Below are positions 16,374-18,680 of a DNA stretch of 64,000 nucleotides, one piece after another. Every line of letters starts with the position of its first letter. Positions within the stretch are counted from its first letter, which is position 1. Under the pieces are notes generated by a model. That model was given only the letters and a program-made list of their open reading frames with translations. It was not told where the DNA came from and ran no database searches. Location of the stretch: positions 1-64,000 of the forward strand of contig SHAK01000004.1 of assembly GCA_004213515.1 (NCBI GenBank), in the 5' to 3' direction. Origin of the DNA: Limisphaerales bacterium. GTDB taxonomy: Bacteria; Verrucomicrobiota; Verrucomicrobiia; Limisphaerales; UBA1096. Both the position numbers and the translations under genes were made by a program.

Positions 16374-17303
16374 TTAAATTTTTTCTATAACACGTAACTG
16401 AGCACTTCGGCTTCTGTAATTCTTCTTTATCTCAAGCTCGGTTGGTTTAATCGCCTTACGCCTTATCTCTTTAGCCAAAGGTTTTCGAGGCTCTCGCCAC
16501 TCAGGTAAATCAATTTCACCTCTCAAAGTATAAGGACTGGCCAAACGTCGATTAAACTGCTTAACCAGACGATCCTCACCAGAATGAAAAGTTATCACCG
16601 CCAAACGACCACCCGGCTTTAAGACTGACCAACAAGACTCAAGCCCAAGTTCTATCTGGATTAGTTCATCATTCACAGCCATCCGAAGCGCCTGAAAAAC
16701 AGCTGTTGCAGGATGAGTCCTAGCACCTCTCCTTGGACAGGCGAGCTCCACAACTTGAGCTAACTGTTCAGTAGTTTCTAGTCGCTGCATTTCTCGCTGC
16801 TCAACAATTGAGCGAGCAATACGATGCGACCTTCTTTCTCCTCCCAATTTCCAAAAAATTTCAGCTAATTCATTTTGATCTAATTCGTTAACTAACTTTT
16901 CCGCAGTAATTGGCTGACGTCGATCCATACGCATGTCAAGTGGACCATTTGATTGAAAACTGAAACCCCGAACCCCCTCTTGGAGCTGAGGCGAACTCAC
17001 ACCTAAATCCAATAAAACTCCATCGCATTTTCGATTTTTCAGATGATTGGCTATGCTTGAAAACGCTTCGTGATGCAATTCCAAACGAGGACCATAATGA
17101 GCTAATCGCTTGGCCGAAGCCTTTAATGCCCAATCGTCTCGATCGAATGCCACCAAACACCCGTCGGGCGAACAAGCTTTTAGAATTGCCTCCGCATGCC
17201 CACCTCCCCCAACCGTTCCATCCACGTACAAACCACCAGCTACAGGCTGAAGCGCTGCCAAAACTTCTTCCAACAAGACGGGTTCGTGAATAAAACTGAT
17301 CAC
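16374..17303 (-). CDS. rsmH: 16S rRNA (cytosine(1402)-N(4))-methyltransferase RsmH
   Basis: The protein has 309 residues. It is a SAM-dependent methyltransferase (MraW) acting on C1402 of 16S rRNA. It starts with the family sequence HEPVLLEEVL, then VDGTVGGGGHAEAIL (SAM loop). DGVLLDLGVSSPQL, GPLDMRMD and the C-terminal FHSGEDRLVKQF follow. The only usable start is GTG at 17303, because an in-frame TGA lies two codons upstream. A GAAAGG sequence abuts the GTG, unusually close for a Shine-Dalgarno. The gene is third in the dcw cluster. Confidence 0.96.
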   Translation of the reverse strand: MISFIHEPVLLEEVLAALQPVAGGLYVDGTVGGGGHAEAILKACSPDGCLVAFDRDDWALKASAKRLAHYGPRLELHHEAFSSIANHLKNRKCDGVLLDLGVSSPQLQEGVRGFSFQSNGPLDMRMDRRQPITAEKLVNELDQNELAEIFWKLGGERRSHRIARSIVEQREMQRLETTEQLAQVVELACPRRGARTHPATAVFQALRMAVNDELIQIELGLESCWSVLKPGGRLAVITFHSGEDRLVKQFNRRLASPYTLRGEIDLPEWREPRKPLAKEIRRKAIKPTELEIKKNYRSRSAQLRVIEKI

Positions 17304-17339: not shown

Positions 17340-17954
17340 TTATTTTTCTACGCAATCGGAGTAAAGCCAAGCAACCTTTCCATTGACGACAACGTCTGTC
17401 TTATAATCTTTAGCCAACTCAATCGCATCTTGGAATTCCTTATCATTAGCACCCTCTAGCTTCTCAGTACGACCTGCCGCTGCTTTAGGCACAACACTAT
17501 TACTAGATCTAGAAATTCTTCCAACTAATCGAATAAACTGATCAAGCATATTAAACCTATTCCGTAACCTCCTAAAAAATGAGGTGCGTTGCGGTTCCTC
17601 AGAAATAAGACTCGGTTTTAAAGCAATATCTGAACCCAAAAGATCATTACGAACCACATTTAATCGTGTCGGTGTGATTCGGCTTTGCACCTTCATATGA
17701 TCACATGGTTGAGGCTTGGACTCTTCGTGGTTTAAATCAAGGTGATTAGATGGTAGTTGCGAAGAACGATCGACTTCAGACGGATCAATAAAGCCAAATT
17801 CGCTCTGTCCATCATTTATCTGATCAGAATCAGTAAAATGTATCGGCTTTGAGCTAGTAAGACCGCCATCATTATGGCCAATTCTCCTTGAAGATTTCCT
17901 TTCCCATGGAGATTCAAGTGCGCCACCAACGGACAAGTATTGCATAAGGTTCAT
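17340..17954 (-). CDS. Unknown protein between mraZ and rsmH
   Basis: The protein has 204 residues and I do not recognise it. It is polar and probably disordered for most of its length, with many S, D, N and Q residues. A basic helix-like stretch is at about 125-150 (FFRRLRNRFNMLDQFIRLVG). The last 35 residues look folded (AIELAKDYKTDVVVNGKVAWLYSD). There is no signal peptide or membrane segment. It overlaps the mraZ stop by four bases and lies 36 bases before rsmH, so it is co-transcribed with the division genes. A cytoplasmic role linked to division or to MraZ is possible but unproven. Confidence 0.7.
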   Translation of the reverse strand: MNLMQYLSVGGALESPWERKSSRRIGHNDGGLTSSKPIHFTDSDQINDGQSEFGFIDPSEVDRSSQLPSNHLDLNHEESKPQPCDHMKVQSRITPTRLNVVRNDLLGSDIALKPSLISEEPQRTSFFRRLRNRFNMLDQFIRLVGRISRSSNSVVPKAAAGRTEKLEGANDKEFQDAIELAKDYKTDVVVNGKVAWLYSDCVEK

Positions 17955-18445
17955 AGGTTTAAATTTTTGATTGCAGCTGCCGCCAAAGCCTCGCTGCCTT
18001 GATTTGCATTTTCAAAACGATCAGAAGACCAAATCTCAAACTTGTTTAATCGGCCGACCAAAACAGCCTCATGATTAATGCCTGCAACTTTTGCTAACTC
18101 CTCTGGCAAACAAAGGCGCCCTACTTTATCAAGCTTCGAATGCGCTGAACTTCCTCCAATCACTCTCTCAACAACGGCCGCTTCTTCGTCTGAAAGCGAC
18201 ATCTCATTCAATCTCTCCAACAAAACATTCCAACGAGCGGGAGGAAGCACTAACAAATACTGCTGCTGTCCAATGGGCCACGGGAGTATGGTTAACTCTG
18301 ATTTTCCCGATTTCGGACGCCATTTTGAAGGAACCATGACACGCCTAGAACCGTCAATCCCATGACGAAAACGTCCGGTAAAAACAATATTTGACTGATC
18401 CAAGGTGGCTGACATTTCAATGCAAAAGGCAATAAACACTGCCAT
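17951..18445 (-). CDS. mraZ: Transcriptional regulator MraZ
   Basis: The protein has 164 residues and two SpoVT-AbrB-type halves: FTGRFRHGIDGSRRVMVPSKWR (about 22-43) and HSKLDKVGRLCLPEELAKVAG (about 107-127). These DNA-binding repeats are the MraZ hallmark. MraZ is the first gene of dcw clusters and in E. coli represses its own operon by binding TGGGN repeats at 10-base spacing. Four such elements lie directly upstream (18450-18485). I keep the ATG at 18445; an internal ATG at 18415 has no better ribosome site. The gene is divergent from queA. Confidence 0.94.
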   Translation of the reverse strand: MAVFIAFCIEMSATLDQSNIVFTGRFRHGIDGSRRVMVPSKWRPKSGKSELTILPWPIGQQQYLLVLPPARWNVLLERLNEMSLSDEEAAVVERVIGGSSAHSKLDKVGRLCLPEELAKVAGINHEAVLVGRLNKFEIWSSDRFENANQGSEALAAAAIKNLNL

Positions 18446-18485
18446 TGCGTCCCTATCTTTCCCGTTTCTTACCTTTCTCTACCCA
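18446..18485 (-). promoter_or_regulatory. Putative MraZ operator: four elements with 10-bp period
   Basis: Read on the - strand, four elements follow each other at exactly 10-base steps: TGGGTA (18485-18480), AAGGTA (18475-18470), ACGGGA (18465-18460) and TAGGGA (18455-18450). The invariant core is GG[T/G]A, and the first copy is a full TGGGN box. E. coli MraZ binds TGGGN repeats with the same 10-base period. The array ends a few bases before the mraZ ATG and overlaps its ribosome-binding region, so binding could block both transcription and translation start. I did not find a clear -35/-10 pair next to it. Confidence 0.55.
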
Positions 18486-18680
18486 AAAGGTCAATATGAA
18501 ATTTGGTATTATTTTATTTTTTCAGCATTTTAAAATGAATTAAACCTATTCTTTTCATATAAACGCTCATCTTTAACGATACAGCTTTTGTCAGATTATT
18601 TTAATCTGACGGTTCTATTGGCCCCATTTAAAGACAAACCAAAGAATCGCTCTTACCTTAAAAAAGAGTTAAATAAAGCC

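Follow-up and report, generated by a model that had tools for sequence, protein, structure and literature searches.

The promoter of mraZ in a Limisphaerales bacterium raises the question of whether phased repeats lacking the GTG core of known MraZ boxes can form an MraZ operator and, if so, what changed in the regulator alongside them. MraZ regulates the division and cell-wall (dcw) cluster, of which mraZ is the first gene. The MraZ GTG box is common to very distant phyla; B. subtilis shares its conserved core with E. coli and mycoplasmas (PMC7761207), and the boxes of mycoplasma MraZ read AAAGTG[T/G] (PMC8475190). We addressed this question in a window of 64,000 nucleotides that contains the locus.

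Phased repeats upstream of mraZ

Four GG[T/G]A units follow one another at a spacing of exactly 10 bases on the minus strand 5' of mraZ (18485–18450): TGGGTA (box 1, 18480..18485), AAGGTA (box 2, 18470..18475), ACGGGA (box 3, 18460..18465), and TAGGGA (box 4, 18450..18455). The site of a fifth, degenerate unit (18441..18445, same strand) reads ATGGC. The four elements and their 10-base steps had been described in a first-pass annotation of the window, and their positions were confirmed. The pattern GGKA-N6, repeated four times, occurred once in the window and in 0/100 dinucleotide shuffles. Four units defined by GG alone at 10-bp steps are expected 0.57 times per window, which is unremarkable, so that the statistical weight lies with the GGKA unit and, above all, with conservation. 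The GG expectation fits a chance alignment of G-rich hexamers, but the probability of that explanation is practically nil given the shuffles, and the genus-wide conservation described below already refutes it.

Three phased GGKA units were found only upstream of mraZ in the 2.74 Mb of the window's assembly (~77% complete). Across the genus, GGKA ×3 sites outside mraZ did not exceed a reversed-pattern control, and we therefore claim no further regulon member. Separately, genome G024 contains an S-box-like array of several GGTAAA-type units (L159, G024:C63 9954–10036), many of them spaced by 10 bp, with no mraZ nearby; the genes on either side, by the look of their sequences, are presumably a regulator gene of the AsnC type and a YacG-like gene. 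Lying between other genes and without an mraZ match, this array was not counted as an MraZ target, and neither were further GGTAACCCAC repeats in G027.

Conservation, promoter, and translation start

The genus sample comprised 20 other genomes, 17 of which contained an mraZ match, yielding an alignment of 18 sequences with the window. The phased array, whose presence in related genomes had been put forward as a check, was recovered as a near-invariant block (TTGAC-N5-GGGG-N7-ACGGTA-N4-ACGGGA-N4-TTGGG) in the 17 further genomes. TTGAC and the boxes were nearly letter-identical across ~50 bases, whereas the region 5' of the A-rich stretch preceding TTGAC was hardly alignable; repeats are thus kept while the flank diverges, the reverse of the pattern (repeats lost between conserved flanks) named as speaking against the proposal. 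In the genus alignment, relatives mostly carry TGGGGA, CGGGGA, or CGGGGT as box 1 and ACGGTA as box 2, TTGGGA or TTGGGT as box 4, and ACGGG or AGGG as the degenerate unit; box 3 was placed by both the genus alignment and that of the Ser-type arrays introduced below. Phased GTG is absent from the genus, and the boxes lack the GTG core, although they are direct repeats at 10-bp steps in an mraZ promoter.

The conserved mraZ start in the genus is ATG 18415 (MSATxDQ), which is the likely translation start. ATG 18445, contained in the degenerate unit of the window, is missing from most relatives, where that unit stands in its place. The overlap with the ribosome-binding region claimed by the first-pass annotation was an artefact of this non-conserved ATG. 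With the start at 18415, the array lies ~35–70 bases 5' of the start codon, over the promoter and transcription start, and a location on the ribosome-binding site was rejected.

On the minus strand, the −35 element TTGACC (18494–18489) stands 17 bases before TAAGAA (18471–18466; TAGAGA in relatives), a putative −10 hexamer interleaved with box 2, whose TA provides its first two bases. TTGAC occurs in all 18 genus genomes and in most promoters of the order that precede a Lys-type mraZ (see below), at an equal distance to the array. A sigma-70 promoter consensus scan returned nothing above threshold, the −10 being a weak consensus match; spacing alone would place it at TAAGAA, and this position in turn would put the transcription start at about box 3. 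The leader matched no Rfam family. Judged from sequence, the array is an MraZ box array at the usual site, the −10/start-site region of the mraZ/dcw promoter. The conserved block might instead be a promoter with a phased pattern that reflects polymerase contacts or bending and contains no MraZ operator, as TTGAC and the −10 lie inside it and would require conservation regardless. This is highly improbable: conservation does not stop at the −10 but extends over boxes 3 and 4, still in steps of 10 bp, the array sits at the MraZ box site of Lys-type relatives and near that of E. coli, and the assembly holds no second copy.

A scan also identified a perfect palindrome with an 11-pair stem (TTGTCAGATTATTTTAATCTGACGG, 18588–18612) at the start of the queA frame as listed. 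It is missing from the aligned genus relatives, which renders a queA start at 18588 doubtful.

The MraZ protein and its dcw neighborhood

The gene behind the array (mraZ, 17951..18415, minus strand) encodes a protein of 154 aa with a Pfam MraZ match (6e-20). PF02381 scored 71.4 bits against a curated cut-off of 23 over two stretches corresponding to the two MraZ repeats, and both repeats carry a DxxxR motif (D21-GSR-R25 and D96-KVG-R100) that is invariant in the protein alignment. In E. coli and M. genitalium the first motif contains a Lys (DxKxR); this Lys gives way to Ser in the window and in all relatives that we term Ser-type: the canonical sequence DEKRRVQIP (DSKGRLSVP in E. coli) reads DGSRRVMVP here. 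This is variation inside the MraZ family rather than grounds for exclusion from it. A monomer model of the window protein reached a pLDDT of 90, and all 16 significant PDB matches were MraZ. Chains from the Mycoplasma genitalium MraZ–promoter complexes (PDB 9r4j and 9sz7, "4 box promoter") matched at Foldseek E-values of 1.6e-11 to 2e-7 (TM 0.70–0.76 by query length). The M. genitalium protein shares the four-box arrangement but only ~24% identity, uses another box core, and the solved complexes include no Ser-type MraZ.

The window mraZ heads a dcw cluster, being followed by rsmH, ftsL-like, and ftsI-like genes. Between mraZ and rsmH (mraW; 16374..17303, minus strand; Pfam Methyltransf_5, 8.5e-100), the next dcw gene, lies orf204 (17340..17954, minus strand), which overlaps the mraZ stop and encodes a protein without Pfam match. 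It occupies the same place in the genus at 39–55% identity, and none was detected in the other loci tried.

Canonical systems from E. coli, Burkholderia cenocepacia, and mycoplasma resemble this one: mraZ is the first dcw gene, its promoter bears about four direct repeats at 10-bp steps, and the MraZ fold and the expected autoregulation are shared. The number of boxes, highlighted by the first-pass annotation, is not noteworthy, as four were reported in B. cenocepacia (PMC7761207) and PDB 9sz7 is itself a 4-box complex. The window array lies nearer the −35 and is interleaved with the −10, whereas those of E. coli and B. cenocepacia were reported downstream of the −10 (PMC7761207). Four boxes and the 10-base spacing are ordinary; the new part is a re-specified core that co-varies with DxKxR.

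An altered box core

Upstream regions were compared across the order, the class, and E. coli K-12, and most carried a canonical GTGGG array at 10-base steps. Canonical arrays of the order stand in the same register relative to TTGAC as the array of the window lineage. Starting from box 1, the consensus of other members was GTGGGg.aaAGTGG.taAaAgTGGGgCGttGTGGGg, and that of the window lineage was TtGGGgAGaAAACGGTAgAgAACGGGAAA.tTtGGG, placing a core of A[C/A]GG[T/G]A in register where the others have GTGGG. In the window lineage, the canonical GTG is replaced by A[C/A]G, or by TTG at box 4, and an A stands two bases after GG. The Lys-type systems of the order (e.g. L026, L074, and L092) are identical to the window in promoter register and dcw context and differ in their GTGGG boxes and in the Lys of DxKxR.

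The altered bases are nearly fixed. At box 2, position −1 was C or A in 25/25 Ser-type arrays, compared with T in 64/74 and C in 0/74 Lys-type arrays, and position −2 was A in 25/25 Ser-type arrays and G in 52/74 Lys-type arrays. A matrix built on the genus only classified 6/7 Ser-type arrays of other families as Ser-like and 0/74 Lys-type arrays. We rejected the view that the GGTA unit is a decayed copy: none of the 25 aligned Ser-type arrays departs from GGTA at box 2, where the TA also supplies the first bases of the putative −10.

These positions also bear on whether the specificity of MraZ changed. GG(G) alone could matter, with the preceding bases having drifted without meaning: GG is present in nearly every Ser-type box and in most Lys-type boxes, and the E. 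coli MraZ motif is usually given as TGGGN. We consider such unaltered specificity rather improbable, as each type has its own, almost invariant pair of bases before GG, tandem mraZ copies of a single genome keep different cores, and GTG has also disappeared in a second lineage that lost the Lys (both described below).

Co-variation with the DxKxR motif

Across a set of 175 MraZ genes, at least two phased GTG were present upstream of 116/124 Lys-type, 2/35 Ser-type, and 1/10 Gln-type genes, against a background of 17% in shuffled sequences. Ser-MraZ forms a single clade (support 99/94), and the 35 Ser sequences were therefore not treated as independent tests: they represent one event in one clade in which other residues changed too. 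In family f6, a Gln clade is the probable sister of Ser-MraZ (support 87/84), and the loss of Lys may be shared between them. A separate Lys-to-Gln change is placed within a well-supported Lys clade in G049, the one genome of its family, where GTG is lost and the boxes read AAGG/AAGG/CCGG. On this phylogeny, at least two independent Lys losses accompany the loss of GTG. Exceptions comprise a Lys-to-Ala case that retains some GTG (L120), paralogues with a shortened motif that retain phased GTG (L075 and L258), and the 8/124 Lys-type genes without phased GTG. One contig (L045, PCCI01000038.1), filed under a Euryarchaeota MAG, holds a verrucomicrobial mraZ with match values equal to those of L046, and is probably mis-binned or mislabelled.

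Specificity may also have changed through residues other than the Lys-to-Ser site, such as the Gln-to-Met substitution in RRVM or the second MraZ repeat, which we regard as possible though unlikely. Ser-type proteins with this Met mostly have C or A before GG, several without it (L138, L207/L263, and L273) have T, and the Ser clade contains further fixed differences. However, the split between Lys and non-Lys accounts for the loss of GTG in both Ser and Gln lineages, and a Lys-type protein with Met (L082) retains GTGG boxes.

Tandem copies and paralogues

In G031, two mraZ genes in tandem, ~100 bases apart, head the dcw cluster. The first encodes DDKRR and carries a GTG array, and the second encodes DGSRR and carries an ACGG array; scored with the genus-only window-type matrix against the Lys-type matrix, the Lys copy received −58 bits and the Ser copy +22.8 bits. 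The Ser-type gene itself precedes rsmH in seven further genomes outside the genus (G028, G038, G058, G059, G063, G104, and G150), of which G104 has an additional MraZ-like gene elsewhere. A Lys-type mraZ precedes rsmH in G034, G069, G082, and G100. Elsewhere in these four genomes, outside the dcw cluster, a divergent MraZ paralogue (L165, L168, L163, and L169, respectively) neighbors a second FtsI-like gene and carries divergent phased repeats of its own.

Since the two copies stand in tandem in one genome, each preceded by an array of its own type, and the genus of the window has only the new pair at dcw, we lean towards a history in which a duplicated MraZ gained a new DNA-reading code, with Ser for Lys in DxKxR and ACGG for GTGGG boxes, that was orthogonal to the ancestral one, and then displaced the ancestral MraZ.

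Proposed mechanism and significance

We consider it probable that the array is an MraZ operator with a re-specified core, serving negative autoregulation of the dcw operon, and that MraZ changed alongside it; descent of this MraZ from a paralogue is the best reading. Comparative evidence gives good support to the first-pass proposal that MraZ regulates itself through a modified recognition sequence: the array is directly observed, as are its conservation, canonical register and promoter position, lineage-conserved altered core, dcw context, and co-variation with DxKxR; binding is predicted. MraZ subunits would occupy the boxes along one helix face, over the −10 and transcription start, and bound MraZ would keep RNA polymerase off, resulting in repression of the dcw operon rather than activation. 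Such a block of the promoter is what the systems of E. coli, B. cenocepacia, and M. genitalium (PMC7761207, PMC8475190) and the PDB promoter complexes would lead one to expect; the description of MraZ as an activator in mycoplasmas (as stated in PMC7761207) counts against repression. The change of the box core from GTGGG to A[C/A]GG[T/G]A would most likely be matched by Lys to Ser in DxKxR, accompanied by Gln to Met four residues on. As the simplest residue-to-base assignment, we propose that the first G of GTG is read by Lys, a contact that would disappear once Lys is lost.

MraZ is among the most widespread bacterial transcription regulators. A lineage in which box and DNA-binding motif changed jointly, a naturally occurring tandem pair, and another, independent loss of Lys provide a test case for the residue–base reading, and searches that rely on the GTG box will overlook MraZ targets in lineages of this kind.
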